Shown here: one piece after another, positions 1 through 40,660 of the stretch
How the letters are laid out: every line of letters begins with the position of its first letter
Numbering within the stretch: position 1 is the stretch's first letter
Source: Marinobacterium profundum
GTDB lineage: Bacteria > Pseudomonadota > Gammaproteobacteria > Pseudomonadales > Balneatricaceae
Length of the DNA stretch: 64,000 bases
Assembly: GCF_001528745.1 (NCBI RefSeq)
Contig: NZ_BCNS01000002.1
Coordinates: forward strand, 1-64,000
Reading direction: 5' to 3'
Program-made: the position numbers and the translations under genes
The notes under the pieces: generated by a model
What the model was told of the DNA's origin: nothing
Databases searched by the model: none
What the model saw: the letters and a program-made list of their open reading frames with translations, nothing else

Positions 1-75
1 TTTTTTTTTCAACCAGAAGACGGAAGACGAGGTGCTCAGGAGTCTCGTGGGCTCGGAGAGGTGTATAAGAGACAG
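1..75. other. Illumina Nextera/P7 adapter left on the contig end
   Basis: Bases 42-75 match the 34-nt Nextera read-2 transposase adapter, ending GTGTATAAGAGACAG, with one mismatch at base 60. Bases 10-32 resemble the P7 flow-cell oligo with errors, and the roughly 9 bases between them would be the index. A T run fills bases 1-9. The sequence is therefore synthetic, and genomic DNA begins at base 76. Read on the minus strand it adds a false tail, CLLYTSPSPRDS, to the phage tail protein next to it. Confidence 0.97.
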
Positions 76-3000
76 CCACTGAGCGTTGTCCTGGCGATCC
101 AGATGGGCGCGTGGGCCGCATCGGTGTTGAACCGCAGCACGTTGTTACTGGCCCAGCCTGAGCCCCAGCCGGCGGCATACAGGGTGAAGTAAGGCTCCCC
201 TGTCACCGGATTGATGGGAGCCAGATCAGAGCCTGTGCTGCCTGTCGCTATCTGCCCCACTACTTCGCCCACAACGTTAAACGACGATGAGCTGGTGAAT
301 ATCAGCGCCCAGCGCTCACGGATGGCGTTATTGTTGTCGGTCTGCGGCGGGTACAAAACGTCGTTGTACTGCGCGGTGGTGTTGCTGCCGATGCGGGCAT
401 CGGCCCAGACGCTGGTCCAGGTGGTCTGGCTGAACAGGTGGTGCACGCGGGCGCCGATATCGCCGAAGATCAGCGCGCTGGAAACGTAGGTATCGGCCGG
501 GTCGTAGGTGCGCGGGATGGCACCCACCAGGCGCAGGGTGCCGTTGATCTCGGCCTCGTTCACCAGCGCCATATCTTCAATGCGGTGGGTCGCGATGAGC
601 GGCTCGGTGTAGGCGCTCAGGTCCAGCGGCGTGGCCATGGTGATGACGCCGGTTTCGCGGTTGACCGTATACAGGCCCGGGTCCACCAGGGTGCCGACCT
701 GGTCCTTGAGGGTGGCGCTGGCCAGTTCGTTACGGCTGAGCGCGGCGGTTTCGCCGGCGGACAGCGGGCTGCTGAGGGTCTGCGACTGGGTGCTGTGCAC
801 CACAACCACGTCGCCGTTGCGGATGATGGGCACGCGGCCATCGATCGGCAGGCGTACCGGGTCCAGCCCCAGCACGGCCTCGTCTAGCGGCATCATGCTG
901 TACACCACGGCGTTGAACTTGGCGGTAAAGGGCAGGATCTCGCTGGCGAAAGTCACATCGGCCACGCCGGTCTGGTAGCTGATGGTGCCAGTGATGCCGT
1001 CCTGGTTCAGCTCGCCATTCAGTGATCCGGTGGCGCTCACCACGGTGCCATCGGGCTGGGTGGCACGCAGGTAGAAGGATGCCGGGCGCAGCGGCGCGCC
1101 TGGGGTGCGGAAGAACATTCTGTCTGCCGTCCAGGCGCCCCGGGTGACCAGCAGGCTTTTCATGGCGACGGTATTGGCACCGCCGTTGTATTCATCCAGC
1201 GATACCTGGCCGGTTTCGTAGTCGATCAGGCCAACTGCGGTGGCGGCGCCGCTGGCGCGGTTAAGGTCCGTATAAATCGTACCTTCGCGGTCGATGTAGG
1301 TTTTGCCATTCCACAAAAATTCGACGCTGCCAGGCATGATGTTACGGGTGGTGAGCGGGGTCAGATCGAAGGTGATCGACGGCAAGGCGGCGGTTTCGGA
1401 CTGGGCGATCGGCGCCACGCTGTCCTGGTTGTATTTAACCTCCACCGAGCCACCGTAAATGCTGGTTTGGGTGAGGTTGCCCCAGCTGCCGTCGCTACCG
1501 GTACCGCTGCTGACAATGTAGGTATCGAGGTCGTAAGCCGCCCGTACCGGCATGACCACAGCGCCGGTAGCATAGTTGATGGTGCCGCCGTTGCTGAGGT
1601 TGCCGGCGCCATCGTCGGTGACGCGCACCGTGGTGGTCTGCTCCTTGGTGCCGCGGTAATAGCGCACGGTACGGGTGCTGTCGTAGCTGGCGACAAAGGT
1701 TTTCGGCTCCACCGGGGCGTTGGCCAGGGTGAAGGTGGCGTCATTGCCGGTCAGGCCCGGGGTCAGCAACGCAGTAGTCTGGGTACCCTTGTCGTAATCG
1801 ATCTGCAGCAGGCTGCCGCTGTCGGGCAGCAGGGTCGGCTTGATGCCGATCTGGCCAAGGCCATAAATCACGCGACCGGTACCGTCGCCGGTGATATTGC
1901 CGTTGCCGTCATCGGTTGCAGTTTTGGTGACGGCGCCGGACTCCCAGCTGATCACCAGGCTGCCCGGCAGGATATCGCCTGCCGACACTGTGGCGGTGAT
2001 GGTGGGCAGCTCGATCTCGGTGTCGGTATCGCGGATCTCGTAATGGGCCTTGGTCGCCCAGGTGTAGATCACAGTGCTGCCGGTGTCTGGCAGCGCACCC
2101 AAGGTCGCTACCACTGAGCCGGTAACGTAATCGATCGTTCCGGTTCCACCGCTGTCGTCTTCCAGCACGCCATCGCCACGATCGCGCATCCGGTACCACT
2201 TGCCCAGCACCATATAGTCAACGGTCAGGGTGCCCGGGTGCGGGATCGGCCGCAGGGTTTTGACGTAGTTATAGCCCCGGTTCGACAACTCGATAGCTTC
2301 GGCGGCAGTGTGGGCGACATCGTAAATGGCAACACCTGGGATGGCGGTTATTTGCAGTGTTTCACCCAGCGCCTTAACGCCGGTCAGAGTGCCGGTGGCA
2401 TAATCGATCGAGGCCACCACCTCACCCATCGCTGCGCCGCCTTGGGGGTGTACCGTGGTTACAACCAGGTTACCTACTCCGTCATCGGTCGCGGTGACGT
2501 AATACAATGTGGCGGTGAAGGGCTTTGCATACCAGGTCGCGGTCATAGTGCCGGGCGTTACCGCACGACCAAAGCCCATTGTGGTGGCGCGGGCCAAGGT
2601 GATGCTATAGCTGCTGGCACTGGCCGCTTGCACGTTGAGCCGATCGGCGCCGGCCTGGATATCCACCACCGGACTCTCGACCGTAGCAGCAGGTACCAGC
2701 TGACCATAGATACTCTCGGCCTTGATGCTCAGATCCCCCGGCGCGATGGCGTCTGCCAAAGGTACAACCCCAAAATATTTTGACGCATCGGCCACCAGGG
2801 TGGTGCGCAGCAATGTGGGGCTACCGTGCTTGCTGATGCGCAGAGCAGTATCGGGGCCATCAAATGTGCGGCGTAGCGCGCTGCCGATCTCGATCGTGAA
2901 CACTTGGCGACTGTATACGCCATTTGAATCTTCAAACTCGCGGATCTCGCCGCTCACGTCGTTAACACGCACATACTGCTGTTCGCCGATGATGGTGCCG

Positions 3001-3470
3001 GTGCTGCTCTCGTTGCTGAGCAGGTAAACGGTGCCCACCTCCGGGCTCTCGGCATCCAGGCGGGCATAGACGGTGATCAGGCGCTGGCCGATGAGCTGGT
3101 CACCCAGCAGCACATAGCGCGACTCGGGCCCTTGCACCACATAGCTTTCGATCCGGTCCTGCGCCTGGGCGCGCTCGTCGGTATAGCTGCCGGTGGTGAA
3201 CATGACCACCGAGACTTTGCCGTCGTCCGGGGCATCGGTGATGATGGCGTGGCTGCCGTAATACATATCCTTGTTAGCCGTGCGCACCGCCGCATAGGCC
3301 TTGCGCAGGTTAACGCGGCCATAGGTGCGATCCAGGCGGCTGATATCCGGGAACAGGTTGTTCACCACGCCATCCACCACTTCCACGGCGCTCATCAGAC
3401 CGCCGCCATCGTCTACGTCCAGCAGCCGCTCGGAGGCCATGAGTTTGATATCGGATTCTAAAATGGTCAT
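76..3470 (-). CDS. Large phage tail/host-contact protein, 3' end cut by contig end
   Basis: At least 1,130 residues are present. The true C-terminus is lost at the adapter junction, and the last 12 translated residues are adapter. The N-terminal part (about residues 1-200) is a mixed domain that I do not recognise. The rest is built of repeated beta-type modules of about 80-110 residues, each holding a signature like TDDGxGNL followed by GTIDYxTGxV. At least six copies can be seen, at roughly 2480, 2170, 1910, 1600, 1230 and 1020 on the map. It is the last gene seen in the tail operon, starting 12 bp after the small membrane-anchored protein upstream. Position and size suggest a central tail-tip or fibre-like protein, but no catalytic motif is visible. 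The function is inferred from context. Confidence 0.75.
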
Positions 3471-11330: not shown

Positions 11331-11347
11331 AACGCCGCGTTATGCGG
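11331..11347 (-). terminator. Hairpin after the capsid gene, possible attenuator
   Basis: Minus strand CGCCGC-ATAAC-GCGGCG overlaps the stop codon of the capsid gene and is followed by TTAACCCCTCTTCTTTT, which is pyrimidine-rich but not a clean T run. It could act as a leaky terminator or protect the 3' end of the capsid mRNA. Confidence 0.4.
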
Positions 11348-13325
11348 CGCCCGTCGCTTTAGCCATGCCGCGGTAATCCACCAGGCCTGCGCCGAAGTCT
11401 TTGCGTACTTTGACTTCCAGCCCGTCCACGTCGGTGTTGGTGTTCACCTCGGTGTACATTTCCTCTTCACCCGCCAGGTGGGCGTACTCGAAGGTGTCCA
11501 TCATGGCGCTAAAGGCGTACCAGGCGGCGGTATCGACCACGGCCAGGCGCGGCTCAACGATGATGTCCATTTTCTGGCGCGGCGCCTGATCTTCGATTTT
11601 GGCGGCCACGATGCGCGGCAACAGCAGATCTTCCGCCGTGGTTTCCAGATCCTCCGGTATCGCAATGGCGTTGTACTCGACGTTCATAAACTGGCCGTCC
11701 AGCGTCTTCATCTTGCGGCCCAGTTTGCGCAGCGCAGTAAGAGACGCCTTGCTCAGGGCGGATCCGGTGGTCAGCAGGTTGGCATGGTCGGCGTGGAACA
11801 GCGCCTTGCCGTCTTCCATTAGTACGCTGCCGGCTTTGTTGTTGATAAAGTCGTAGTTCAGCAACAGGCCCCAAACGATATCGTTTTCCAACCGGGCGCC
11901 AGCCGGACCGAACATGCGCGGCATGCGATCCAGCGCGCCCATATCGTCGTTGATCAGCATCTTGCGGGTGAAAGCGATTTTGCGCGCGAAGGTATCGATG
12001 GCGTAACGCTCTTTCGCCTCACTGAAGGTGCCGGCCTGGTATTCGCCGTTTTCATTCAGTGGTTTCAGGCTGGGCGCGTCACCCAGGCGATACAGGTGCT
12101 TCTCGCGGAAATCGTTCGCGGTGCTCGCCTGGCCCAGACCCATGAAGGTACGCGGTGTTTCGCGATACGCATCCAGCAGGTTTTTGTTCATTACGTTTTC
12201 AAGGATCAGCGGAAAATCGCTGGTCGAGTGCATCGCACGGGTGGCGATTTTCTGCGGCGACAGGCCGCGCACATTCACGCCCTGGGCTACCAGCAGCGTG
12301 CGCGCCACCTCCATCATGGAGCGGCCGGAAAACTCGCGGGCGCCTTCGGTCAGCGTGGCGCCTTTCACCCGGGCGCGCACCATGATTGCTTCTTCAGCCG
12401 AACGAATCAGGGATTCACCCTCATCGCGGCGGCCGTCGCTTTTCAGGTAAGGATCTACTGCGAAGGATTTCACACCACCGGCTTTGCGGGTTTCGGCCAT
12501 CTTATCGAGCACCAGGGCGCGGAAGGCATCAATACCAGTGCCATCAGCGAAGGCATCAGTAGCGAAAGCATCGTCCAGGCCTGCGGCGCGAGCAGCTTCA
12601 AGCATCGGCTTCAGCTGCGCGCGGGTTTCGCCCCGCACTTCGTCCGCATTCACAGTGGGTGCGGCTGGAGCGGCAGGTGCGGCGGGCTGGGTACGGTTGG
12701 CCTCTTCCTGCTGCGCCTTCAGGGCAGCAGCGGCAGCGCGTTCTTCTTCGGTCATCGGTGTTTCCTCTTGCGTTAATGTGACATCGTAGGTTTCTGCGCC
12801 TGCGCGCTCTGCGTCGCGGGTACCGTTGGTGGTTTCAAAACTGACCGGCACGATCGAGAGCTCCAGCGGCTCCCAGTCGATCGCTTCGCGCTGCTCAATG
12901 GCAGTGTCTTTGCCAGGCTTGGTGACCTTGTATTCGTGGATGCGGTACCCCAGGGATACGTGGCGCAGAATCCCATCCGCTACGTCATCAAATACCGCTT
13001 GCTGGTTCTTCGAGAACCGACAGGTGCCCGCCAGCTGGCCTTTCTCGATGCGGTAATCTTCGGTGACGCCCAGAACGGCGCCAATACCGGCATAGCGGTT
13101 ATGGCTGTCCAGAATGCTGAGGCCCTTTTTCAGGCGTTCCTGGCGGATCGATTTATCATCAACGCGCAGGCTCTCTTCGTAAGGGTCAGACCACCAGGAT
13201 TGACGCAGGCCGGCCTCCCCCGTGGTGAATACGATCTCGACCGTCATATTCTCGCGGTCGACCGTTTCTGGCCGGAAGAACGCGGCGCCTTTCAGGCTCG
13301 GCATCTTTTCTTTTCTGGTCGCCAT
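11340..13325 (-). CDS. Prohead protease-major capsid protein fusion
   Basis: 661 residues combining two genes that are often separate. Residues 1 to about 190 form a prohead protease of the S78 type, with the catalytic His in LDSHNR and the Ser in RHVSLGYRI. An Ala/Pro/Gln-rich linker (about residues 195-240) leads to a scaffold-like helical region and then an HK97-fold capsid domain (about residues 350-661). The protease would cut itself and the scaffold away during prohead maturation. The start at 13325 (ATG GCG ACC) is chosen because GGGGA lies 5 nt before it; a TTG further upstream lacks a ribosome site. Similar fusions are known in other siphophages. The gene follows the portal after 75 bp of non-coding sequence. 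Confidence 0.88.
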   Translation of the reverse strand: MATRKEKMPSLKGAAFFRPETVDRENMTVEIVFTTGEAGLRQSWWSDPYEESLRVDDKSIRQERLKKGLSILDSHNRYAGIGAVLGVTEDYRIEKGQLAGTCRFSKNQQAVFDDVADGILRHVSLGYRIHEYKVTKPGKDTAIEQREAIDWEPLELSIVPVSFETTNGTRDAERAGAETYDVTLTQEETPMTEEERAAAAALKAQQEEANRTQPAAPAAPAAPTVNADEVRGETRAQLKPMLEAARAAGLDDAFATDAFADGTGIDAFRALVLDKMAETRKAGGVKSFAVDPYLKSDGRRDEGESLIRSAEEAIMVRARVKGATLTEGAREFSGRSMMEVARTLLVAQGVNVRGLSPQKIATRAMHSTSDFPLILENVMNKNLLDAYRETPRTFMGLGQASTANDFREKHLYRLGDAPSLKPLNENGEYQAGTFSEAKERYAIDTFARKIAFTRKMLINDDMGALDRMPRMFGPAGARLENDIVWGLLLNYDFINNKAGSVLMEDGKALFHADHANLLTTGSALSKASLTALRKLGRKMKTLDGQFMNVEYNAIAIPEDLETTAEDLLLPRIVAAKIEDQAPRQKMDIIVEPRLAVVDTAAWYAFSAMMDTFEYAHLAGEEEMYTEVNTNTDVDGLEVKVRKDFGAGLVDYRGMAKATGAA

Positions 13326-13362
13326 AATGTCCCCGTCTTGTTGCCTCAATTCTCGCTGTGGG

Positions 13363-13399
13363 GCGGTCGAAAACAAGTGGACTGTATATTTGTACAGTC
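13363..13399 (-). promoter_or_regulatory. Palindrome plus 16-bp repeat upstream of capsid gene
   Basis: The 75-bp gap between portal and protease-capsid holds a perfect inverted repeat GACTGTA-TATTTG-TACAGTC (13380-13399). Directly beside it is GCGGTCGAAAACAAGT (13363-13378), which recurs exactly at 15773-15788. It may be a regulatory or RNA-processing site ahead of the capsid gene. No promoter hexamers are obvious. Confidence 0.4.
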
Positions 13400-13400
13400 T

Positions 13401-14912
13401 CTATTCGTTCGCGCCCTTGTCGTCTGCCTTGGCTTTCTTTTTGATGCGGGCATTGCCATTTGAATTGGCGCTGGCGGCATCGTTATCGTCCAGCTGATTG
13501 CCAGCGCTGCTGAACTGGCTTGGGTCGTGATCGAATGGCATTTCTCCAAACAGCGCTTTGGCTTCCAGCCAGCCCGTCAGGATGTCTTCAAACTTGCCGC
13601 CGTGTTTGGCCGAGAACTGCTGGGGCGTCATGGCGCAGGTGCGCACCTTGGCGATATCCACATCCAGCTCTTCCTTGGGATTGACCGCCGAACGGTGTGG
13701 CAGTATCCAGCTGCGAGTAACGCCGACTTTGCCGACTTTCACGGCGTATATGCCATCAAACCAATCGTGAACCTTGTTAAGACCAGGCAGCATCATGAAC
13801 AGCTGCCAGCGATCAAGATTCGCGTAAAATTCACCGCGGGCCAGGCGGCCACTGGCCCAGGTCACCTGGCTGAAATCGCCGGTAATCTGCTCGCGCGTCA
13901 CGCCTACACCGACGGCAATGTCCTGCAGCACTTCAGAGTTAAACTCGGTGCCGCTAGAAACATTGGGCGGTGTGACGGTGGTGATATCGGTGTTTGAACT
14001 GGCATAGGCGATCATGCCGGCCTCTAGCTCGGTGTACGGCAATCCAGCTTCATCACGCAGCGGGGTGCCGGCCGTTTTCAGGCCCATATCGCCGGGGGCT
14101 TCCTTGATGATAATGCCCATGCAAGCGGCCATGCGCTGCAGTGTCAGGGAGGCGTCGCGCCATTCCTGGCGGTCATGTATCAGATCGGCGACCGGATGCA
14201 GCCAGGACACGCCCAAATGCTGCCCGGCGCGATCCTTGCGGTAGATGTGCACCACATCATCGGCGCTGTAGAACTGGCTTTCTTCGCGGGTTAATTGGCT
14301 CACCAACTTGGTTTTCAGGTAGTAGCCCAGCAGCTCGCCTTCGCTGGAATATTTGATGCCGCTGATGATTTCGCCGCCATCAACCTGGCCGGAGCGGGAT
14401 TCATCCAGAAACTGCTGTTCCAGCGTCTGCAGTACCAATGGGAACGCCAAGGCATTGTTTATGATCTGTCGCACAAAGACGCCGCCCGACTCTACGACGG
14501 TGGCAGCCCACAGCCACTGCAGACCCCACAGGTTGTTGTGACCCTCGTAGTCACAGGCAGTGGAGTTCGCCCAGGCATCGAACGTCTCTTTGTAGCGCTG
14601 GGTCGGGCGCTTGGCGCCGCCCACATAATCGGGTTTGATGCCGGTGCCGATCATATTGGTGGCGATCACGGCTTTAATGCGGTTACCGATGGCAGTGTTG
14701 CGCACCAGTTCCTGGGCGCCGCCCGCAAGCGGGGTGTGGCCGCGGGCCACTTCGTCCGAGCCGCGGGTTTTACGGCGACTGTAGCTGCCGTTCAATCGAT
14801 CCGGATTCGCTGCCGTGTAGGCGCGCAGCATATCCAGCTGCACGCGATCGCGCTGCCGGGACAGGGCTTTTTTCGGGTCGGTTATTTCATACCAGCGGTC
14901 TATTAAATTCAT
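13401..14912 (-). CDS. Portal protein, lambda family
   Basis: 503 residues, beginning MNLIDRWYEITDPKKALSRQ. The N-terminal segment around residues 70-110 (RNTAIGNRIKAVIATNMIGT) and the central helix-rich region match the lambda gpB portal family, the twelve-subunit ring through which DNA enters and leaves the head. The C-terminus is rich in Lys, Asp and Asn, as is usual. It overlaps the gpW-like gene by 4 bp and follows terL after the connector genes, in the expected order. Confidence 0.9.
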   Translation of the reverse strand: MNLIDRWYEITDPKKALSRQRDRVQLDMLRAYTAANPDRLNGSYSRRKTRGSDEVARGHTPLAGGAQELVRNTAIGNRIKAVIATNMIGTGIKPDYVGGAKRPTQRYKETFDAWANSTACDYEGHNNLWGLQWLWAATVVESGGVFVRQIINNALAFPLVLQTLEQQFLDESRSGQVDGGEIISGIKYSSEGELLGYYLKTKLVSQLTREESQFYSADDVVHIYRKDRAGQHLGVSWLHPVADLIHDRQEWRDASLTLQRMAACMGIIIKEAPGDMGLKTAGTPLRDEAGLPYTELEAGMIAYASSNTDITTVTPPNVSSGTEFNSEVLQDIAVGVGVTREQITGDFSQVTWASGRLARGEFYANLDRWQLFMMLPGLNKVHDWFDGIYAVKVGKVGVTRSWILPHRSAVNPKEELDVDIAKVRTCAMTPQQFSAKHGGKFEDILTGWLEAKALFGEMPFDHDPSQFSSAGNQLDDNDAASANSNGNARIKKKAKADDKGANE

Positions 14913-15146: not shown

Positions 15147-15545
15147 TTACCTGGGCGGCCCCATGGGCCCCAGCGGCTTGGGCGGTGGCGGTGCGAGCAA
15201 TTTCTCAATGCGTTCCAGTGCATCCGCCATGCGGGTTAAATCCTTAAGCAGCGCCAGCGGCACGATCACCAGGGAATCATCAGCAATGTCGGGTATCACG
15301 TTGGGCGGCAGGCCGCGCTCTTCCCTGGACTTGCGCGGGGGCATTAGCGAGGGCTGTTCGGCGCGCTGTCGGCGCGCAGCGCAGATCCGGTAGCCCGGGA
15401 ATGCTTCTGTCAAATGCTGGCAGCCAGGCGTGCCGCAGGCGCCTACAGTCGAACTGGCTTCATCACCCGGACGCACAGAAAGCAGGGAGTCGCCATCAGG
15501 ACTATCCGCCTTCGGCGGGCTGATGAACCACTTTAAGAAACTCAT
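15147..15545 (-). CDS. Phage protein of unknown function, Pro-rich tail
   Basis: 132 residues. The ATG at 15545 gives a 4-bp ATGA overlap with the upstream stop. The N-terminus is MSFLKWFISPPKADSP. Two or three Cys residues occur in GACGTPGCQH and RICAARR. A helix (VIVPLALLKDLTRMADALER) precedes a C-terminal run of prolines (LLAPPPPKPLGPMGPP). The C-terminal part could be a peptide that binds the terminase or portal, but no family is recognised. It is encoded between terL and gpW. Confidence 0.6.
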   Translation of the reverse strand: MSFLKWFISPPKADSPDGDSLLSVRPGDEASSTVGACGTPGCQHLTEAFPGYRICAARRQRAEQPSLMPPRKSREERGLPPNVIPDIADDSLVIVPLALLKDLTRMADALERIEKLLAPPPPKPLGPMGPPR

Positions 15546-15760
15546 ACGCCAAAGAGCTCGCAAGCCAGCTGGTTGAAATAGGCCGCACAGCGGTCGCCGT
15601 AGTCTTCAACAGGGATGCCGTCCTCATCCAGAATGTCATCAAATGCTGCCGGATCATCGGCGAAACGCTCTGCCCAGGCATTGAAAACGGCAGCCATCTG
15701 TTCTGGGGTTAGCTCCATAGTGCAATGCTCCGGGTTATGGCGGTGGTAATAGCGACTCAT
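15542..15760 (-). CDS. Small acidic phage protein
   Basis: 72 residues, acidic. After MSRYYHRHNPEHC it reads as alpha-helical, with MAAVFNAWAERFADDPAAFD. It begins 27 bp after the terL stop, close to the 16-bp repeat at 15773-15788. Small acidic proteins often follow terL in such phages. I do not recognise it. Confidence 0.55.
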   Translation of the reverse strand: MSRYYHRHNPEHCTMELTPEQMAAVFNAWAERFADDPAAFDDILDEDGIPVEDYGDRCAAYFNQLACELFGV

Positions 15761-15788: not shown

Positions 15789-18700
15789 TAGCGGCCCTTC
15801 TTGAAGAACCTGGCGGGGCGTTTCTTGCGCGGGCGTTCGGCTTCTGGAGCGGGCTCTGGCTCTGCGGGCAAGTCGGGCGACAGCGCATCAGGCGGGCGGC
15901 TGCTGGTAGCGCCGTAGTGTTTCTCGCGCTCTTTGAAGTCTTCATCCGCCATGCGGTCAAGGCCCAGCATCGAAGCGGCAGCACGGGCATAGCCGCGGCA
16001 GTCAAGATAATGGTTGTGGTCGCGGATGGTTTCCCAGCTGCGCACCAGAAACCCTTTTGAATCCGAGCGCTCGATGAGTATTTCGGCGGTAAGCTGCTTG
16101 AAGTAGTCATCACCCCACTCAGGGAAATGACAGTACCCGGTGGGCCATTCACCACCGGCGGCCAGGTGCTCATCTGTGGGGCGCGGCAGCAGCAGCCACT
16201 TGTACAGCTGCTCTTTCAGCACGTTCACGCCCAGTGGCCACATCTTGATGCCACCATCGCGGCGAATGCCGTTAATATCGATCTGCACCGGCTTGGGGGT
16301 GCCGACAATGGTGGTCAGGTTGCCCTGGCCCTTGATGGCCCGCAGGCGCGGCGTGCCGATCTGCGCCACGGCGCTGTACACCTCGCTGGTATCGTTGGAT
16401 GAGTCAATCAGGGCCAGTTCAATCGCCATCGGGATACCGGCGGCATTGGTATAGCGGGTTTCCATAAACTTGCTAAGGTTCTCGCGCGTGGCATCTTCGG
16501 AGATATGGCCGTCAATAACGCCGATATCGATAGACCAGCTGACCTTTTTCCGCCCCCAGGCCACGGCTTCGTAAATCAAATAATCTTTCTGCACGTCGAT
16601 GCCTACCGTCACCATCAGGCCGCCGTTCGGTACCGTGCAGGGGGCATAGCTTTCGCGGCGTTCATACAGGCGCTGCCAATCGGGCGCCTCGCCGATCTCG
16701 CGGTACACCTGCGCCATGCGGGTGTTGATAAACGCCTTCATGGCCTGGGGGTTATCCAGCGCATCCACGTATTCACGCGCCAGTGTCGTGATGGGCGTAA
16801 AGGGGCTGGCAAAGGCACTGGCCCAGTAGCCGCGGTGGTGCTTTATTTCCGGGCGCTTAGGGATCCAGCAACCCTCGGCGATCGAGCGGAAGCGGTCGCT
16901 TTCGGTCCATTCACTGCCGCACTCATGGCAGATAATAACGGCGCCGTCGGGCAGCTTGGTGCCTTTGTCGTCTTCGGGAATATGGACGTGCTTTTCCCAG
17001 TTCAGCACCTCGCTGTGGCCGCAGTGTGAACAGGGCTGGTGATATTCGCGCTGGTCCGATTTCAGGTATTCCTGATGGATACGCGAGCGGCCTTCCACCG
17101 TGGGCGAACAGGCGGTGATCTTCTTGGCACGTTTGCCGTAGGTGGTCGAGCGGCCCCAGGCCACCTGGATTGGGTCACCCTCACCGCCCGAACCGCCCTC
17201 GCCTGCACCCACGTTGAGCGGGTACTTGTCGCACTCGTCAAACAGCATGATGCGGCAGGCGCGCATCGCCAGATCCGTCGGGTTGCGGGCTGAAACGATC
17301 GATATCTGCCCGCCTGGGAACTGCTTCTGCAGTATGGTGTTGCCTTCACCGCGCCTGTTGCTGCTGAAAACATCACGGGTGACCGGCGTGGCCATCGCCG
17401 ACTTCATAAAGCGCTCTTTCGACCAGGCCTCCGCGGTTTCCTTCTTCGGCGCCACATACATGATGGGCGAAGGCTCCTGATGGATGAAATACAGCGCCGC
17501 GTTGATCATCAACTCTGTGTTGTGAGTCGGGATCATTCCTTCGCCGCACAGGTACAGGTGATCGGGCGAGTCCACTGCAATGCACTGCACCGGTACCGGC
17601 GACACCTCAACCACATCAACGATCCGCCGGCGCTTCGTCTCACCCACCCGCGTCTTCGCTGATATCGGTTTCTGCCGGGCTCGCTTGCGGTGCAGCTTGA
17701 ATATCGGGGTGTCGGCGTAGGCGACAAAATTGACGTGATAAGCAACCCGGGTTCGATGCACGCCGGGCTTAAAACCGAGGCTGCGCAGCAACTCCACAAC
17801 TTGCAGGGCAAGGCGCTCATCCTTCGAGCAGAAGCTGGCATTCCCCTGCTTCGAAATGGTGCCATCGGTATCCATTAGCCCCTGCAGCAGTTCGAGCCTC
17901 TGCCGGTGGCTGGCGCGCATGTAAAGGGCGGGAATGTGCTTGTTCTGCAGCACGTTCAGCTCAACCAGCAGCTGGTGCATCCGCTTGTTTTTGCGATCCG
18001 AATACTGCGGATTCTGCCGTCTTGGGTTCGAGCGCAGGCTCGCGCAGGTACGGCAGCGGCGGCCCGGTTCCAGTGGGTGACCATAGGGACATTCGTCAGT
18101 CGGGCGGACTGTGCTAATCAACCATTCCCGGGTACCAGTCGCCGTTTCTGATTTCAGCTCGGCCGCATAACCATCAGCCATGAGCTCGTCAATGATCTGA
18201 TGATCCTTGGCGTGATTGGTGAAGCGCGACGAATAGCTGTGACCATCACCCAGCCAGGCGCCAAAGGTGTATGGCGCGATTAGAAGATCCGCTTCCGGCA
18301 GTTCGAGCGGATCGGCAACGGGAATGGCGTATCGGTTTGCCAGGCGCCCGTCACTGAGTACCGACTTGAAGGTCTGGCTGATCTCCAGCGTGTTGGTGAC
18401 ACGCGTGCACTGGGTAGATGTGCGGTTGCGGCTATCATCCACCAGCCATTTGTGACCGGCATCCGCTATAACCTCGGCGCCATCGGAGAACACAACCCGG
18501 AAGCAGCGGTTTGCCGTCTTGATGTCGGACTTTGCCAACACCCGGCAAGGCTTGCCGTCACGACCGAAAACCCGATCACCGACATGGAGCGAGCCCATGG
18601 TCGTCCAACCTGCAGGCGTCGGAATTGGCGTATCGATCGCCAACGCCTTCATCAGCTGGATGCAGCACATTACCGTCACTTCCTGCACTTCGGGCAGGGT

Positions 18701-18925
18701 GATGGACTCCATCGGTTCGCGGGCAACCTGCACGCGCGAGGTACGCCACCGGCCTGCTTCGGCCGAGTTATCGGGCAGGTGGCGATAGGTATCCGCCCAC
18801 TCAGGCATATCCAGCTTGGGTGGCGGTTTAAGACTGCTCTTTACGACATCTTCAAGGCGGCGGCGAAGATTCCGCAGCGCACGGAAATGCAGCGGCTCAG
18901 TGGGATTCGCTGTCGTCGTCATCAT
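15788..18925 (-). CDS. terL: Terminase large subunit (GpA family) interrupted by an intein
   Basis: The precursor has 1,045 residues, and removing the 376-residue intein leaves 669, the normal GpA length. The ATPase half has its Walker A loop split by the intein: the flanks CCIQLMK and TELMINA join to a GKT-like loop. Walker B is MLFDECDKYP. A C-terminal nuclease domain follows (VGIDVQKDYLIYEAVAWG, later LIDSSNDTSE and LDCRGYARAAASM), and the protein ends in a basic tail. It cuts concatemers at cos and pumps DNA into the prohead, with the small subunit and portal. The start at 18925 (MMTTTANPTEPLHF) is preferred over one further upstream because it shortens the overlap with terS to 29 bp. Packaging needs protein splicing first, since the P-loop is broken in the precursor. 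Confidence 0.95.
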   Translation of the reverse strand: MMTTTANPTEPLHFRALRNLRRRLEDVVKSSLKPPPKLDMPEWADTYRHLPDNSAEAGRWRTSRVQVAREPMESITLPEVQEVTVMCCIQLMKALAIDTPIPTPAGWTTMGSLHVGDRVFGRDGKPCRVLAKSDIKTANRCFRVVFSDGAEVIADAGHKWLVDDSRNRTSTQCTRVTNTLEISQTFKSVLSDGRLANRYAIPVADPLELPEADLLIAPYTFGAWLGDGHSYSSRFTNHAKDHQIIDELMADGYAAELKSETATGTREWLISTVRPTDECPYGHPLEPGRRCRTCASLRSNPRRQNPQYSDRKNKRMHQLLVELNVLQNKHIPALYMRASHRQRLELLQGLMDTDGTISKQGNASFCSKDERLALQVVELLRSLGFKPGVHRTRVAYHVNFVAYADTPIFKLHRKRARQKPISAKTRVGETKRRRIVDVVEVSPVPVQCIAVDSPDHLYLCGEGMIPTHNTELMINAALYFIHQEPSPIMYVAPKKETAEAWSKERFMKSAMATPVTRDVFSSNRRGEGNTILQKQFPGGQISIVSARNPTDLAMRACRIMLFDECDKYPLNVGAGEGGSGGEGDPIQVAWGRSTTYGKRAKKITACSPTVEGRSRIHQEYLKSDQREYHQPCSHCGHSEVLNWEKHVHIPEDDKGTKLPDGAVIICHECGSEWTESDRFRSIAEGCWIPKRPEIKHHRGYWASAFASPFTPITTLAREYVDALDNPQAMKAFINTRMAQVYREIGEAPDWQRLYERRESYAPCTVPNGGLMVTVGIDVQKDYLIYEAVAWGRKKVSWSIDIGVIDGHISEDATRENLSKFMETRYTNAAGIPMAIELALIDSSNDTSEVYSAVAQIGTPRLRAIKGQGNLTTIVGTPKPVQIDINGIRRDGGIKMWPLGVNVLKEQLYKWLLLPRPTDEHLAAGGEWPTGYCHFPEWGDDYFKQLTAEILIERSDSKGFLVRSWETIRDHNHYLDCRGYARAAASMLGLDRMADEDFKEREKHYGATSSRPPDALSPDLPAEPEPAPEAERPRKKRPARFFKKGR
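17519..18646 (-). other. Class 3 intein with LAGLIDADG homing endonuclease in TerL
   Basis: 376 residues, from Ala1 (ALAIDTPIPTPAGW) to the C-terminal IPTHN, followed by Thr as the first extein residue. It begins with Ala instead of Cys or Ser, so normal class 1 splicing is impossible. The three class 3 marks are all visible: Trp two residues after the block B His (ADAGHKWLV, Trp at 18446-18448), Cys at block F position 4 (VQCIAV, at 17582-17584) and Thr just before the final His-Asn (at 17525-17527). The endonuclease part carries two dodecapeptides, FGAWLGDGH and LQGLMDTDG. Between them is a putative zinc site, CPYGH with a later CRTC. Both splicing and homing therefore look intact. Confidence 0.93.
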
Positions 18926-19439
18926 CAACAGTAAAGTCGGCGAGCTCTTCGAGCATGCGGTACACCTCTTCTTCGAGGCGTTTTTCAATCGTCAGCGCGT
19001 CCTGGTGCTCCAGCTGTGCGGCGTACTTTGGCAGGGCCATCAGATGGGCGCGGATGGTGGCCAGCGCTTCGCCGAGCTCGTCCATAATGGCTTCGATATC
19101 GCCATAGCGTTCTTCCACCACAGCCAGGCCGATTTCTTCTTTCTTCATCAGCGCCAACTCTTTGCGCCGGCGAATTTCATCAATATTCAGTTCGTCGGTG
19201 TTGTTGCCGGTGGATTTCTGCACCTCCATGTCCCGCAGCCAGCGGATGCACATCGCCGAGTCGTAGCGCGGGGCGTCACGCGGGCCGCCGTTGTCGTAGA
19301 TCGGCATGCCCCGCTTTACGTACCCCGTCACACTGTGGCGACTAACACCCAGCATTCGCGCCAGGGCCTGACCATTGGTGATCGTCCCTACCCCGCCGGC
19401 CGACTGGCCACCCTTATGATTCTTGCTCGCGTTCGCCAT
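18897..19439 (-). CDS. Terminase small subunit, Nu1-like
   Basis: 180 residues. An N-terminal winged-helix part (TNGQALARMLGVSRHSVTGY, then VKRGMPIYD) resembles the DNA-binding domain of lambda gpNu1. Helices in the middle (residues about 85-160) would form the assembly domain, and the acidic C-terminus DDDDDSESH would meet the large subunit. The ATG at 19439 with GAGG just ahead is favoured over a TTG six codons upstream. It overlaps terL by 29 bp. It should recognise the cos region, which is expected directly upstream (19440-20120). Confidence 0.85.
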   Translation of the reverse strand: MANASKNHKGGQSAGGVGTITNGQALARMLGVSRHSVTGYVKRGMPIYDNGGPRDAPRYDSAMCIRWLRDMEVQKSTGNNTDELNIDEIRRRKELALMKKEEIGLAVVEERYGDIEAIMDELGEALATIRAHLMALPKYAAQLEHQDALTIEKRLEEEVYRMLEELADFTVDDDDDSESH

Positions 19440-19457
19440 GCCCTCACCACCCAACAA

Positions 19458-19741: not shown

Positions 19742-20118
19742 CGAGCGGATCCGCTGGTCCGGTAGTGTCTGATAGTGGTGCTACTGGCGGTGGCTTCAGG
19801 CGCGCGAGCAGATCCGGTTCGACTGGTACTGCTGCTGGTGCTGCTGGCATTGGTGCTAGTGCTGGTACTGGTGCTGCTGGTGGTACTGCTGCCTGGGCTG
19901 AGGTGCGGCGCTCGAACGGATCTGCTGGCACTAGTGCCTAGTGCCTGGTGCTGCTGGTGGTACTGCTGTTGGCTTGTTGCTGCTGGTCTCAAGCGGATCC
20001 GCAGGGCGCAGGGTTGCTAGCGCTAGTGCTGGTGTCGATGGCCTACTGCTGCTGGCCTGGTGCCTGCTGGTGGTACTGGTACTGGCGCTTCTGCAGGTCT
20101 GCGATCGGTTCCGCTCGG
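19742..20118. repeat. Repeat array upstream of terS, candidate cos/terminase-binding region
   Basis: Five copies of a 16-bp motif close to CGAGCGGATCYGCTGG start near 19742, 19803, 19913, 19990 and 20102. They are separated by low-complexity CTG/GGT-type sequence that is largely free of a single open frame. Read as protein, the copies give ADPLE-like words in different frames, so the conservation is at DNA level. The place, between lysis genes and terS, is where cos lies in lambda-like phages. Two further palindromic spots lie nearer terS: GAGCCCGGATCCGGGGGCTC (19501-19520) and ACCCCGGGGGT (19621-19631). Which base is cut cannot be told from sequence. Confidence 0.6.
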
Positions 20119-29254: not shown

Positions 29255-29959
29255 ATGTCGACAGATAGCAAGGCATGGAACGGTGGCGTGCATGACGCGC
29301 ACGGCCAGCCAATCCAGCAACGACTCCGCAAAACTGCACTGCAACAGCGTAATGTCGATGAGCTTATCGGGATCTGTCGTGGTATCTCGATTGACGGCAT
29401 GGTAAGCCAAGCCGAACTTGAACCTTTCTACATCTGGCTGCATAGCCGGCCAACATTGATCGATGTATGGCCTGGAAATGTGCTGTATGCACGACTCAAG
29501 GATGCCTTTGAAGACGACTTCATTGACAAGCATGAGGCGCAAGATATTCTCGACCTGCTTCTGAGTGTAGTGGGAGGCGAACCAGATATACAGACCAGCA
29601 CCGATACGAGCACCGGCGAAATAGTTGCGGTGCATAAATCGGCGTCATTGCCGATTACCGAACCGGAAAATATTCAAACAGAAGGGTGCTACTTTGTCCT
29701 AACTGGTAGATTTGCGGCTGGACCCCGCAAAGAATGGGAAAAGTTGATTATCGAAGGCGGTGGGATATGCCAAAAATCCCCGACGACACGAACTGACTAC
29801 GTGGTGATTGGTACGGTTGGGAGTCGTGACTGGGCGCATTCAACCTGGGGCCGCAAAATAGAGGCGGCCGTCGAACTCCAGAAAGGCGGGCATAAGGTCG
29901 AAATCATATCTGAAGAATACTGGATATCACGCATAGGCTTGAAAGACGCTAACGCCTAG
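29255..29959 (+). CDS. BRCT-domain protein, prophage cargo
   Basis: 234 residues with an AAGGAGG site eight bases before the ATG. Residues 1-125 are helical and unassigned. The C-terminal 90 residues form a BRCT domain of the DNA ligase/RFC type: YFVLTGRFAAGPRKEWEKLI, IEGGGICQKSPTTRTDYVVI, WGRKIEAAVELQKGGHKVEI. BRCT domains bind 5'-phosphorylated DNA ends or phosphopeptides. Such stand-alone proteins occur in prophages and islands, with unknown role. The gene is the last of the repressor operon, before the terminator at 29997. Confidence 0.85.
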   Translation: MSTDSKAWNGGVHDAHGQPIQQRLRKTALQQRNVDELIGICRGISIDGMVSQAELEPFYIWLHSRPTLIDVWPGNVLYARLKDAFEDDFIDKHEAQDILDLLLSVVGGEPDIQTSTDTSTGEIVAVHKSASLPITEPENIQTEGCYFVLTGRFAAGPRKEWEKLIIEGGGICQKSPTTRTDYVVIGTVGSRDWAHSTWGRKIEAAVELQKGGHKVEIISEEYWISRIGLKDANA

Positions 29960-32820: not shown

Positions 32821-33110
32821 ACACCGGACAGCAGGCGGTCGAGATAAGCGCCAAGCTATACCAGTGCCGGGATCAGCAAATATTCCTGGGCGGGGCAGAC
32901 AAATTCAAAGCAACAGTTCAGAAGTGGCGTCCACTGTTCGACAGCGCCATGAAGGAACACAACTGCGGACCGATAAAAGCGCTCACCGTGCTACTGGATC
33001 GGCTGGAAAAGAGCGCGCATAACGACGGCATGGCGATGCACTTGCTGTGCGCTGTGGCCTGCGAACTGGCAGAGCCTGGCGTCACGGTCGGGAAGGAAGG
33101 TGCGGCATGA
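32817..33110 (+). CDS. Small helical phage protein
   Basis: 97 residues, mostly helical (KALTVLLDRLEKSAHNDGMA, MHLLCAVACELAEPGVTVG). Coupled to both neighbours by ATGA overlaps. No family recognised. Confidence 0.65.
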   Translation: MNTGQQAVEISAKLYQCRDQQIFLGGADKFKATVQKWRPLFDSAMKEHNCGPIKALTVLLDRLEKSAHNDGMAMHLLCAVACELAEPGVTVGKEGAA

Positions 33111-34813
33111 CTTCGCGGATGAAACTAAACCCGCTCGATTTCAATACCCAGTACGGCCTGGCGCTTGACGAAATCGACCACGAAATAAATGTTGATCTCT
33201 TCGCAGGCGGTGGTGGGGCTAGCACCGGGATCGAAATGGGCCTTGGCCGCCCTGTTCATATTGCAATCAACCACAACCCGGCGGCGATCAGCATGCATCA
33301 GGCCAACCACCCCGGCTGCCTGCACCTGCAAACCGATGTCTGGACTGTCGATCCCGTGGCCGTGCTCGCAGGGCGTCGGGTTGGGTGGTTCCACGCATCC
33401 CCGGATTGCACCCACCACAGCCAGGCCGCAGGCGGGCAACCGCGCAAGAAAGAGATCCGGGATTTATCGTGGGTCGTGATCAAGTGGGCCGGCATCGGCA
33501 AGCCCCGCATCATCAGCCTGGAGAACGTGAAGCAGATCCGCCAGTGGGGCCCGCTCGTCGCCAAGCGCTGCAAGACCACCGGGCGCGTTATGCGACTGGA
33601 TGGAACCGTTGCCAATCCCGGCGAGCGTGTACCGCGCCATGAGCAGTACCTGGTGCCGAACAAGAAGCGCAAAGGGCAAACGTGGCAAAAGTTCCGCGCC
33701 TGTCTAGAGGCGCTGGGGTACCACGTCGATCACCGCATTCTGAAGGCCTGTGACTTCGGCGCCCCAACGAGCCGCGAGCGTCTATTCATGGTTGCCCGTC
33801 GAGATGGCGAGCCGATCATATGGCCTGAACCCAGTCACGCAGCGCAGCCGGCCAAGGGCCAGAAGCCCTACCGCACGGCCGCTGAATGCATCGACTGGGC
33901 TGTGCCAGGCAAAAGCATCTTCGGCCGCAAGAAGCCGCTGGCAGAGGCCACCATGCGACGGATCGCCAAGGGCATCAAGCGCGAGGTGTTAGATAGAGCC
34001 CAGCCCTTCATCGTGCCGATAGCAAACTGGAGCCAGGAGACGGTACACCCAGCAGACCAGCCGCTGAACACCATTACGGCATGGCCCCGTGGCGGATCAT
34101 TCGCGCTCGCAACAGCATTCCTGGCGCAAGCGAACGGCGGGTTCAACACCACGCACTCCAAGCCGCTCAGCGACCCGATGACCACGGTGACAAACACCGG
34201 CAGCCAGCAGCAGCTGGTAACGGCCAACCTGGTGCACCTGCGCGGCAACTGTGACGCGCGGGCGGTGGATGACCCACTGCACACCATCAGCGCCGGCGGG
34301 CAGCACCATGCACCGGCAACCGCCTTCCTGTCCCGTCAGTTCGGTGGCAGCGTTGGCCAAGGCATTGATGAGCCAGCCCCGACGATCACCGCAGGAGGTG
34401 GCGGAAAGTCCGCTCTGGTTGAGATCAAGCTGGCAGCAGATGCCGAGGCCGGCGCCCTGTGCTGTGCCGCCTTCCTGATGCGCTACTACGGCGAAGGCGG
34501 ACAGTGGGGCGATCTGCGCGAGCCAATGCACACGCTAACCACCAAGGCCCGCTTGGCTCTGGTCACCGTTTGGATAGGCGGCGACCCATACGTGATTGTT
34601 GATATCCATCTGCGCATGCTCCAGCCCCATGAGCTGTACATGGCGCAGGGCTTCCCGCCGAGCTACATCATCGACCGGGGGCACGACGGGCGCAGGCTCA
34701 CGAAATCCGAGCAGGTGCATATGTGCGGCAACTCAGTGAGCCCACCGCCGATGGCCGCCATCGCCCGAGCAAACAACCCATGGCAAAGAAATAGTCAATT
34801 TCTCGCAGCATAA
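33107..34813 (+). CDS. C5-cytosine DNA methyltransferase
   Basis: 568 residues. Motif I is DLFAGGGGASTGIEMG and motif VI is ISLENVKQIRQWG. The motif VIII region is GAPTSRERLFMVARR and the last motif is QGFPPSYI with GNSVSPPPMAA. The catalytic Cys loop reads HASPDCTHHSQA, a variant of the usual GFPCQ. The target-recognition region (about 34040-34600) is made of five imperfect repeats like PLHTISAGGQHHAPATAFL. No restriction enzyme gene adjoins it, so it probably modifies phage DNA to escape host restriction. The ATGA overlap at 33107 sets the start. Confidence 0.93.
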   Translation: MTSRMKLNPLDFNTQYGLALDEIDHEINVDLFAGGGGASTGIEMGLGRPVHIAINHNPAAISMHQANHPGCLHLQTDVWTVDPVAVLAGRRVGWFHASPDCTHHSQAAGGQPRKKEIRDLSWVVIKWAGIGKPRIISLENVKQIRQWGPLVAKRCKTTGRVMRLDGTVANPGERVPRHEQYLVPNKKRKGQTWQKFRACLEALGYHVDHRILKACDFGAPTSRERLFMVARRDGEPIIWPEPSHAAQPAKGQKPYRTAAECIDWAVPGKSIFGRKKPLAEATMRRIAKGIKREVLDRAQPFIVPIANWSQETVHPADQPLNTITAWPRGGSFALATAFLAQANGGFNTTHSKPLSDPMTTVTNTGSQQQLVTANLVHLRGNCDARAVDDPLHTISAGGQHHAPATAFLSRQFGGSVGQGIDEPAPTITAGGGGKSALVEIKLAADAEAGALCCAAFLMRYYGEGGQWGDLREPMHTLTTKARLALVTVWIGGDPYVIVDIHLRMLQPHELYMAQGFPPSYIIDRGHDGRRLTKSEQVHMCGNSVSPPPMAAIARANNPWQRNSQFLAA

Positions 34814-38884: not shown

Positions 38885-39241
38885 GTGGCCAGTGTAAAGG
38901 AAAAAGTTATTAATCAGGCGCTGGCGCGCATCGAGCGCCGCCTGACTTCCATTCGTGGCGTCCTTGATGCTAATCCGCTGTCTGATCTGTGCGAGGTCAG
39001 GGAAAAGGCAGCGGCGTTGCACGACGCCTGTTTTGCGGGCGACAAGCGCGATCATGACGGATTCATAAAGGGCCTGGATCCGCTGGTGAAAGAAGAAGCG
39101 CGGCTGCTGCGGCTGGCAAAGCGGCAGCTGCGCGACTCGATGAAATTGATAGATAAGCAGGTAGAGCTTGAGTTTGAACGGGGTGAACTCATCCGCGAGC
39201 TATCGATGATCGATTTCAGGAATAGCCTTCGCGGCAGTTAG
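38885..39241 (+). CDS. Helical phage protein at the end of early operon
   Basis: 118 residues, GTG start with GGATCTGCC before it (weak site). Mostly coiled coil (VKEKVINQALARIERRLTSI, VKEEARLLRLAKRQLRDSMK). The stop overlaps the integrase stop by 4 bp in convergent fashion, so transcription of either gene runs into the other. No family recognised. Confidence 0.6.
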   Translation: MASVKEKVINQALARIERRLTSIRGVLDANPLSDLCEVREKAAALHDACFAGDKRDHDGFIKGLDPLVKEEARLLRLAKRQLRDSMKLIDKQVELEFERGELIRELSMIDFRNSLRGS

Positions 39242-40512
39242 CCCTTACCCGCCAGCCGCTCCAGCAGTTCCGCTTTTTCCGCCTCGCTCAGCCCATCCAT
39301 AATAGCCCCCAGCTTATCCGTCTGCGACTCGCGCCCACTGGCGCGGGTGATGGCGGATACCGCCGTCTGAATCCCTACCCGTGTACTCTCTGCATCCAAG
39401 TGCGCATAGGTGCTGGCCGTGATGTTAATGTTCTTGTGCCCCAACACCTTGGCGATCTGCTGCAACCCCACCCCTTCGATCGCCTGCCAGCTGCCCAGGG
39501 TGCGGCGCAGGTCATGGATGGTCAGCCGTGCTTCAAGATCTGCAGGACGCAAGCCAGCGCGATGCGCGATGCGATTCCAGTAACGCTCGGTCTTAACCGG
39601 TATATGCGGCGAGCGCATGCCCGGGAATACATACCCAGTCTTGGCCTCAGCCTTGCGGCGGCGCAGGATCAGCACCGCATCTTCGATCAGCGGCACGCTA
39701 TGGGCCCGCCGGCCCTTCATCTTGCGCCCCGGAATCGTCCAGGTGTTGCGCTCCAGGTCTACTTCGCTCCACTCCATTGTGTGCACCACCGCTTTACGCT
39801 GGGCAGTAAACAGCAGGATGAGCACCACATCCTGGTACAACTGATCTTCCTGCGCGATTGAGTCAAACAGCGGCGCCACCTCATCCGGGCGCAGGTAGCG
39901 TTCGCGCTTGGGTTGCTCGCGCCGATGCACGCTGGTAACGGGCGGCGCAACATCGATGCCGAGCTCGTCACTCGCATAGCGGTAAACACCCCTTAATACC
40001 GCGATCCAGTGGTTGTGCAGGCTCTGGTTGTATTGTTCGGTGCGCATATGATCACGCACTGCATCGGCGCTAATGTCCACCAGCTTGCGGCGGCCAAACA
40101 CCGGCCGAATATGCAGCCGGTAATTGCGCTCATAGCTCACCCAGGTAAGGTGTCGCAGCTCTCCAGTGCTGACCTTATGTTTCAGATCAAACAGCCACTG
40201 CACCGCTACATGATCGAGCGTTGAGCTCTGCTGCGCCGTTCTGGCCGCGGCTTCATCCGGATCGATACCGGCGTTAAATGACGCCGCATATTCAGCGGCT
40301 TTGCGCCGGGCCTGGTCCACCGTCCACTGCCCGAAACGGCCGATACTGCGCTCGACCACGCCGCGCTCTTTATGCCGGGCCCGATAGTAAAACGTCTTGC
40401 CACCGGTGGGGGTCACTCGCAGGGTCAGCGACGGCAAAACCTCGTCGGCATACCGAGTGCGCTTCTCGACCACCAGCTTCTCAGCCCAGCTTTTGGTGAA
40501 CTTAATTCTCAT
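39238..40512 (-). CDS. int: Tyrosine integrase, P4-type
   Basis: 424 residues from MRIKFTKSWAEKLVVEKRTR. The N-terminal arm-binding domain (SLTLRVTPTGGKTFYYRAR, RSIGRFGQWTVDQARRKAAE) and core-binding helix are as in P4-like integrases. The catalytic part shows Arg in FTAQRKAVVHTMEW, His-x-x-Arg in IHDLRRTLGSW, and LGHKNINITASTYAHL with the nucleophile Tyr. The gene faces away from dgt, so its start is 120 bp from that gene's 3' end, where attachment is expected. A longer start at 40542 is possible. Confidence 0.95.
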   Translation of the reverse strand: MRIKFTKSWAEKLVVEKRTRYADEVLPSLTLRVTPTGGKTFYYRARHKERGVVERSIGRFGQWTVDQARRKAAEYAASFNAGIDPDEAAARTAQQSSTLDHVAVQWLFDLKHKVSTGELRHLTWVSYERNYRLHIRPVFGRRKLVDISADAVRDHMRTEQYNQSLHNHWIAVLRGVYRYASDELGIDVAPPVTSVHRREQPKRERYLRPDEVAPLFDSIAQEDQLYQDVVLILLFTAQRKAVVHTMEWSEVDLERNTWTIPGRKMKGRRAHSVPLIEDAVLILRRRKAEAKTGYVFPGMRSPHIPVKTERYWNRIAHRAGLRPADLEARLTIHDLRRTLGSWQAIEGVGLQQIAKVLGHKNINITASTYAHLDAESTRVGIQTAVSAITRASGRESQTDKLGAIMDGLSEAEKAELLERLAGKG

Positions 40513-40660
40513 ATTGAGCCCTGGCCCACACCGGGCCCACATTTCATATCAATTTTCATTGTATTCGTCGCATTGCCATTAAACATCAACTTCCGCATAT
40601 TTCGTAACAATATCAACTATATAGCATCTTTATTAAGCTGAATATATCTTCCTAGATAAG
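40513..40660. other. Probable prophage-host attachment site
   Basis: This AT-rich stretch lies between the integrase and the last codons of dgt. The other copy would be off the left end of the contig, so no direct repeat can be confirmed. The dgt reading frame stays open to a stop (40633), which suggests the phage carries a copy of the gene end that keeps the gene whole. Confidence 0.45.

Follow-up and report, generated by a model that had tools for sequence, protein, structure and literature searches.

A predicted class 3 intein splits the ATP-binding loop of a GpA-type terminase large subunit from a Marinobacterium prophage

How can a phage terminase work when its ATP-binding loop is split by 376 additional residues? 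The locus that raises this question lies in a window of 64,000 nucleotides, positions 1 to 64,000 of contig NZ_BCNS01000002.1 of Marinobacterium profundum. We propose that the insert is a full-length class 3 intein, consisting of a splicing domain and a LAGLIDADG endonuclease, in the P-loop of the GpA-type terminase large subunit (TerL) of a temperate prophage, a reading to which we give a probability of roughly 93%. The features on which it rests are collected in Table 1.

Table 1. Coordinates of the TerL gene, its intein and neighboring prophage genes in the window
Feature	Position	Strand	Basis or remark
TerL precursor, 1,045 aa	15788-18925	-	ATG start; Pfam PF05876 and PF20454
N-extein, 93 aa, ending ...CCIQLMK	18647-18925	-	Relatives' empty sites
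Class 3 intein (predicted), 376 aa, Ala1 to Asn376	17519-18646	-	PDB matches, empty sites, model
C-extein, 576 aa, starting TELM (+1 Thr)	15791-17518	-	Rest of GpA ATPase and nuclease domain
Ala1, codon GCG	18644-18646	-	Coordinate check
Cys48, counterpart of M. smegmatis DnaBi1 Cys48	18503-18505	-	Coordinates by arithmetic from residue 1
His65 (B10)	18452-18454	-	80/80 distinct full-length rows among the matches listed
Trp67 (B12, W of WCT), TGG	18446-18448	-	80/80 rows among the matches listed
LAGLIDADG motif 1 (TFGAWLGDG), Asp134	18242-18268	-	Alignment
CPYGHPLEPGRRCRTC, zinc-finger-like motif	18044-18091	-	Between both LAGLIDADG motifs
LAGLIDADG motif 2 (LLQGLMDTDG), Asp261	17861-17890	-	PF14528, alignment
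Cys355 (F4), TGC, presumed splicing nucleophile	17582-17584	-	80/80 rows among the matches listed
Thr374-His375-Asn376 (G5-G7); single codons Thr374 17525-17527 (ACT), His375 17522-17524, Asn376 17519-17521 (AAC)	17519-17527	-	79, 78 and 80 of 80 rows among the matches listed
Terminase small subunit	18897-19457	-	phrog_57, E 7e-25
Small gene between TerL and portal	15542-15760	-	Weak PHROG match, family of unknown function
Portal protein	13401-14912	-	phrog_21
Major head and protease protein	11340-13376	-	phrog_4523
Integrase (temperate prophage)	39238-40542	-	phrog_1

The host protein belongs to the GpA type, with matches to the PF05876 ATPase (E 1.2e-56) and the PF20454 nuclease (E 1.3e-72). 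Its open frame runs upstream to a TTG at 18988. Pfam matches the ATPase domain in two pieces with the insert between them and, when the C-extein plus one intein residue is scanned alone, PF05876 picks up again at the Thr, which corresponds to profile position 41. A coordinate check divides the precursor into 93 residues of N-extein, 376 of insert and 576 of C-extein, which places the insert between Lys93 and Thr470 of the precursor. The calculated masses are 117.7 kDa for the precursor, 42.1 kDa for the intein and 75.6 kDa for spliced TerL. In 13 intein-free relatives the site reads Q(L/A)(M/L)K↓TEL without interruption (the arrow marks the insertion point), and none of the 13 departs from K↓T. 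Four cultured phages have such an empty site, with QLMK or QLLK running into TEL: Pseudoalteromonas phage B8b, Vibrio phage 1.050, Shewanella phage 1/44 and Bordetella phage PBb001, whose TerLs are 39.3-58.8% identical to the one here over BLAST-joined pieces. Viral contigs scanned with the C-extein yielded ten loci, the prophage here and nine others; all nine are empty at the same bond and share ...VQEVTVMCCIQ(L/A)MK↓TELM. Because the intein-free relatives pass straight through K↓T, both ends of the insert are fixed. An earlier reading of the sequence alone had given the insert as 376 residues at 17519-18646, with Ala first and THN last before Thr, and had set it between the Lys and Thr of Walker A. 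The former was exact to the base, and the latter is borne out by the 13 relatives together with PF05876 resuming at position 41. The Walker A motif itself is degenerate, C-I-Q-L-M-K↓T, with Met at -2 (Leu in PBb001) where other GpA TerLs have Gly. A sequence search of the PDB for a solved GpA TerL, made with the B8b protein, gave two chance matches only.

Class 3 inteins are defined by Trp at B12, Cys at F4 and Thr at G5, by a residue 1 that is not a nucleophile and by Ser or Thr at +1, with one known exception that has Cys at this last position (PMC5222942, PMC3196547). The insert has the complete Trp-Cys-Thr (WCT) set, Ala1 and Thr at +1. The codons that the sequence-only reading had assigned to Trp, Cys and Thr agree with the coordinate check, and its class assignment stands on the triplet, Ala1, the +1 Thr and similarity to studied class 3 inteins. 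To see how far the signature is kept, relatives of the intein were retrieved by six short patterns, TPAGWTTM included, with the genome rows being the best 80 of 92 loci. Eleven loci were left out: three as duplicates (L001, L008, L026), four as incomplete or broken (L031, L036, L071, L082) and four because their start was too divergent for setting residue 1 (L027, L028, L032, L037). The last four show H-x-W, Cys and THN by eye. From the remaining 114 rows, 33 not longer than 290 aa were dropped; the resulting alignment has 81 full-length rows including the one here, 80 of them distinct. Retrieval by short patterns biases this set toward query-like inteins. Among the matches listed, residue 1 is Ala in 67 of the 80 rows, Gly in six and Cys in one, from Acidovorax phage ACF1; in six rows whose match starts at residue 2 it is P (three rows), M, L or E.

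A direct comparison with known class 3 inteins, which had been suggested as a check and was run as phmmer against the PDB, put the class 3 DnaB inteins 6rix, 6riy and 6bs8 on top at E 9.9e-32 to 7.1e-31. These matches span both splicing halves of the insert: 6rix and 6bs8 align from residue 1 through the terminal PTHN, and 6riy, a variant, up to PTH. Chains of gp41-1, class 1 by origin, are far behind in the same search at E 0.0066 and 0.13, the former being 6riz, a variant into which W and C have been engineered. The AlphaFold model was made from 27 aligned inteins, includes ten extein residues on either side and reaches a mean pLDDT of 86.3. Its best Foldseek matches are to PI-SceI, an intein with a LAGLIDADG endonuclease; chains of 6bs8 align with the splicing domain (target TM-scores 0.60 to 0.84), the alignments being gapped and their rmsd large. 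Against predicted viral proteins, the model matches a terminase large subunit (ctEpl1) best, then a DnaB and the terminase of LittleE. In a tree made up of the retrieved relatives only, the insert and the intein of Marinobacterium lutimaris TerL are joined at 100/100 and fall outside the actinobacterial DnaB-like clade. The pair lies near phage inteins with ...(D/W)YK↓-like flanks at a node of moderate support (93/93), drawn open; one neighbor, L145, sits in a PD-(D/E)XK nuclease gene.

Inteins also occur in other GpA-type TerLs. In another GpA branch the site reads FMKGAQVGG↓TE or FMKAAQLGA↓TE. Here the Lys is at -7 and -1 is Gly or Ala, an arrangement that the lambda gpA motif shares. In this branch three inteins (L006, L009, L034) begin with Pro, in the form ...G(A/G)-PLAL...THN↓TE, and PF05876 likewise picks up at position 41 where their C-exteins begin. 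ACF1 reads ...RTGK↓C...THN↓T, again with its C-extein from PF05876 position 41. Residues 85-435 of the ACF1 TerL (L044, MZ547449) are an unannotated intein with Cys1, Trp B12, Cys F4 and Thr G5, by sequence a mixed class 1/class 3 signature. Tori and Perler are said to have described mixed Cys1/WCT inteins in 2011. A Rhodobacteraceae MAG (L071), GpA type as judged by eye, reads SSQVGK↓ALALDT before its frame breaks off inside the intein. GpA-type TerLs of several lineages bear inteins at one alignment column. Because this column is invaded where -1 is Gly or Ala, a Lys at -1 is dispensable. What the invaded proteins share is the +1 Thr, which would supply the hydroxyl of the P-loop and also act as acceptor in splicing. 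Two further observations concern plasmids. The 39.5 kb plasmid CP092490.1 of Endozoicomonas sp. Mp262 (L158) is of phage-genome size and holds an unannotated intein in a GpA TerL-like frame; it has Pro as residue 1 and flanks as in L006, L009 and L034, was assigned to the GpA type by look rather than by Pfam, and its TerL frame stops 18 codons past the intein. Five plasmid records (H115-H119), four of them from Enterobacteriaceae, match across the full intein at 31%; in one record the match is annotated as traD.

The ACF1 intein bears on the possibility that the WCT set of the insert is incidental and that another residue initiates splicing, by a class 2-like or class 1-like route. Class 2 inteins likewise have no nucleophile at residue 1, so that Ala1 would suit them and Thr+1 could attack directly; and since ACF1 combines Cys1 with W, C and T, class signatures can mix. 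Against this stands the direct similarity of the insert to class 3 inteins, whose relatives include some that are proven to depend on Cys F4 (PMC5222942). We give these routes next to no credence. A close homolog with Cys or Ser in block A, which would have counted against the earlier class 3 assignment, was sought; the sole intein-bearing one found, that of M. lutimaris, has Ala1.

The triad and the splicing steps of class 3 inteins are described in PMC7664689 and PMC5222942, and on the model of the inteins studied there we propose the following order of events. Cys355, which would form a triad with His65 and Thr374 and have Trp67 in the core, would attack the bond between Lys(-1) and Ala1, and the N-extein would become bound to it in a thioester. 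The N-extein chain would then move to TerL Thr(+1), and cyclization of Asn376 would release the intein. An O-to-N shift would restore the peptide bond in ...QLMK-TELM..., the native P-loop. Unspliced TerL should be unable to bind ATP and packaging should depend on splicing, as had been argued earlier; both are sound inferences from the sequence. Because the insert sits in the ATP-binding loop, the packaging motor should run only after self-excision.

The distribution of the intein can be read from the close relatives found: one species, M. lutimaris, carries it, and 13 sites lack it. DNA at the insertion site is nearly identical in the empty relatives. The scan of viral contigs ran on short patterns; its nine empty loci include near-duplicates, and it did not return the M. 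lutimaris contig (L002), though this is present in the collection, so nine of nine empty is no occupancy rate. In a search of 115 genomes around the source genome, 12 had a TerL match and two an intein, namely the source's own and one of its family, which we infer from matching coordinates to be the M. lutimaris locus. Such scattered occupancy is the pattern of a mobile intein, and the insert is probably self-spreading. Within the 226 contigs of the source genome, a search for a second intein gave one more match, at E 0.1 among transporter-like minus-strand frames, which we regard as chance.

The M. lutimaris intein (L045, the same as L002) has the same site, length and zinc-finger-like motif, and near-identical flanks. 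It is 73.9% identical to the insert, and the exteins are 75.2% identical. Its C-extein is 78.7-83.9% identical to six empty ones of its own clade and 75.8% to the C-extein here. Six of seven viral-contig C-exteins compared are 74-77% identical to the one here. The TerL tree neither joins the two occupied TerLs nor rejects joining them (p-AU 0.1). It was built on 13 rows, long rows included, and repeated on 11 without B8b and PBb001; near-duplicates L150 and L157 (of L149 and L151) were left out of both. Because the intein is no more alike than the exteins, recent transfer to or from M. lutimaris is not visible, and direct transfer between the two is not supported. Old presence with losses and separate gains from related donors both fit.

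Could the insert be a dead or barely splicing relic in a decaying prophage with an inactive TerL? Class 3 pseudogenes exist, such as the Arthrobacter Arth_1007 intein (PMC3196547), and two related copies are broken as read, those of the Endozoicomonas plasmid and the Rhodobacteraceae MAG. In the insert, by contrast, every catalytic residue is intact. Relative to M. lutimaris, pN/pS is 0.21 for the intein, 0.26 for the exteins and 0.22 for the endonuclease part, rough values because synonymous sites are near or at saturation; they indicate that intein and exteins are still under constraint. The surrounding prophage also argues against decay, since it has genes for head, tail and lysis as well as for repressor, replication and integrase. 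PHROG scans covered 20 chosen ORFs; up to position 48 kb, 44 ORFs of 180 aa or more were listed. Matches for structure, lysis and packaging comprise portal, head-protease, tail completion, major tail, tape measure, endolysin and small terminase; the others comprise a replication initiator, CII-like and CI-like regulators, a recombination exonuclease, a RusA-like resolvase, a methyltransferase and an integrase. Three of the 20 ORFs had no PHROG match, and those at 36-3470, 15542-15760 and 29255-29959 match only families of unknown function. The second of these is by position probably a head-tail connector; a 71-aa gene is at the equivalent place in B8b, Vibrio phage 1.050 and Shewanella phage 1/44. 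Judged from these matches, the main temperate-phage modules are all present. We consider a relic very unlikely, and favor an intein that still splices.

Two other features of the prophage were noted. Upstream of the small terminase gene, the stretches 19829-19972 and 20039-20070 hold short, degenerate repeats in which CTG and GGT are frequent. A stretched PHROG match had raised the suspicion of an insert in the DNA methyltransferase at 33047-34813; this was ruled out, as H127, H129 and H132 cover the gene in one piece at 55-61% identity and Pfam finds a methylase only.

The region between the splicing halves is by sequence a homing endonuclease of the LAGLIDADG type, both acidic residues included. 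PF14528 matches above its cut-off, D134 and D261 are in place, and PI-SceI is the best fold match; each acid is kept in 68 of 80 rows among the matches listed. The enzyme would cut intein-free terL at the insertion site, in co-infecting or resident relatives, whereupon the intein would be copied. The endonuclease part also contains a zinc-finger-like motif at which model confidence is low (block means 49 to 66). The pattern Cys-x2-(Cys or Gly-His)...Cys-x2-Cys is found there in 26 of the 80 rows listed, where shuffled segments would give 0.35; actinobacterial genomes account for 23 of the 26 (L046-L055, for example, are among the 26), so they are not independent. A recent capture of this part from HNH endonucleases by the insert alone was considered and rejected, as the motif occupies the same place in all 26 rows. 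Searching the 53-residue stretch against 50,697 phage records gave 27 records, none below E 3; two are HNH genes, at E 9 and 3. The motif may stem from an older capture, and it may bind metal.

A further cysteine raises the question of control. In M. smegmatis DnaBi1, H2O2 induces a disulfide between Cys48 and the catalytic Cys that inhibits splicing (PMC6195587). The authors term Cys48 non-conserved and report that every Cys48 mutant tried lost splicing (PMC6195587). The insert has the counterpart, as do 74 of 80 full-length rows among the matches listed: 28 of 34 viral or phage rows and 46 of 46 genome rows, of which about 40 have DnaB-like flanks. All 33 shorter rows among the matches listed are consistent with a looser Cys48 pattern. 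By eye, the divergent rows L027, L028, L031, L032 and L037 have no Cys48, which makes 74 of 85 listed, a count that excludes L036, L071 and L082. As an addition to the class 3 reading, an oxidized Cys48-Cys355 pair could keep TerL unspliced, so that packaging would await a reducing cytosol. The same pair forms the inhibitory disulfide in DnaBi1 and Cys48 is widely kept, but it is absent from 11 of the 85 rows listed. Moreover, because all DnaBi1 Cys48 mutations tried abolish splicing, its conservation may serve splicing alone. We regard such a switch as rather unlikely. By analogy, a toggle between Cys48 and Cys F4 might be near-general in class 3 and gate assembly of the GpA P-loop, a tolerable or useful gate that could have led to repeated invasion; this broader idea is more doubtful still. 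With Cys48 so widely kept, redox control can be tested directly, both for phage packaging and for class 3 inteins at large.

The insert is of a known type, and comparison with known systems indicates that what may be new is the GpA-type host family for class 3 inteins. In nr, 1,701 class 3 inteins have been counted, 82.5% with LAGLIDADG motifs (PMC7891396). Our literature searches returned no report of an intein in a GpA-type TerL. The hosts of mycobacteriophage inteins are terminase_1, terminase_6 and the terminase-like protein Pham3880 (PMC5050341), and the Azotobacter paper, as far as its available text goes, describes inteins in ribonucleotide reductase genes and does not mention terminase. 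GpA TerL intein genes have already been deposited without an intein label, as the ACF1 record, annotated only as terminase large subunit, demonstrates. Within the scope of these searches, class 3 inteins are extended to GpA (lambda-like) terminases, with empty alleles at hand as candidate homing targets.

The closest studied inteins, M. smegmatis DnaBi1 (6bs8) and M. chimaera DnaB1 (6rix), have Ala1, Cys48, His65, Trp67, Cys F4 and a THN end like the insert. They similarly follow the Lys of a GK↓S P-loop, with flanks FGVGK and STLGL in M. smegmatis (PMC5222942). However, they are mini-inteins in a host helicase with Ser+1, whereas here the endonuclease is kept, the host is a phage terminase and +1 is Thr. 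Mycobacteriophage TerL inteins cluster in the ATPase domain, and TerL1-a lies between the P-loop Lys and Thr (PMC5050341). The site of the insert is thus of the same kind; because TerL1-a inteins have a terminase_1 host and the host here is of GpA type, we consider the two to be different alleles. The class 3 inteins TerL1-c and TerL1-e are also in phage terminase large subunits, but sit elsewhere in the ATPase domain, in a poorly conserved helix and at Walker B, and in another terminase family (PMC5050341). The intein of ACF1 shares the host family, the PF05876 column and W, C and T with the insert, and differs from it in Cys1, a distant sequence and a long branch.
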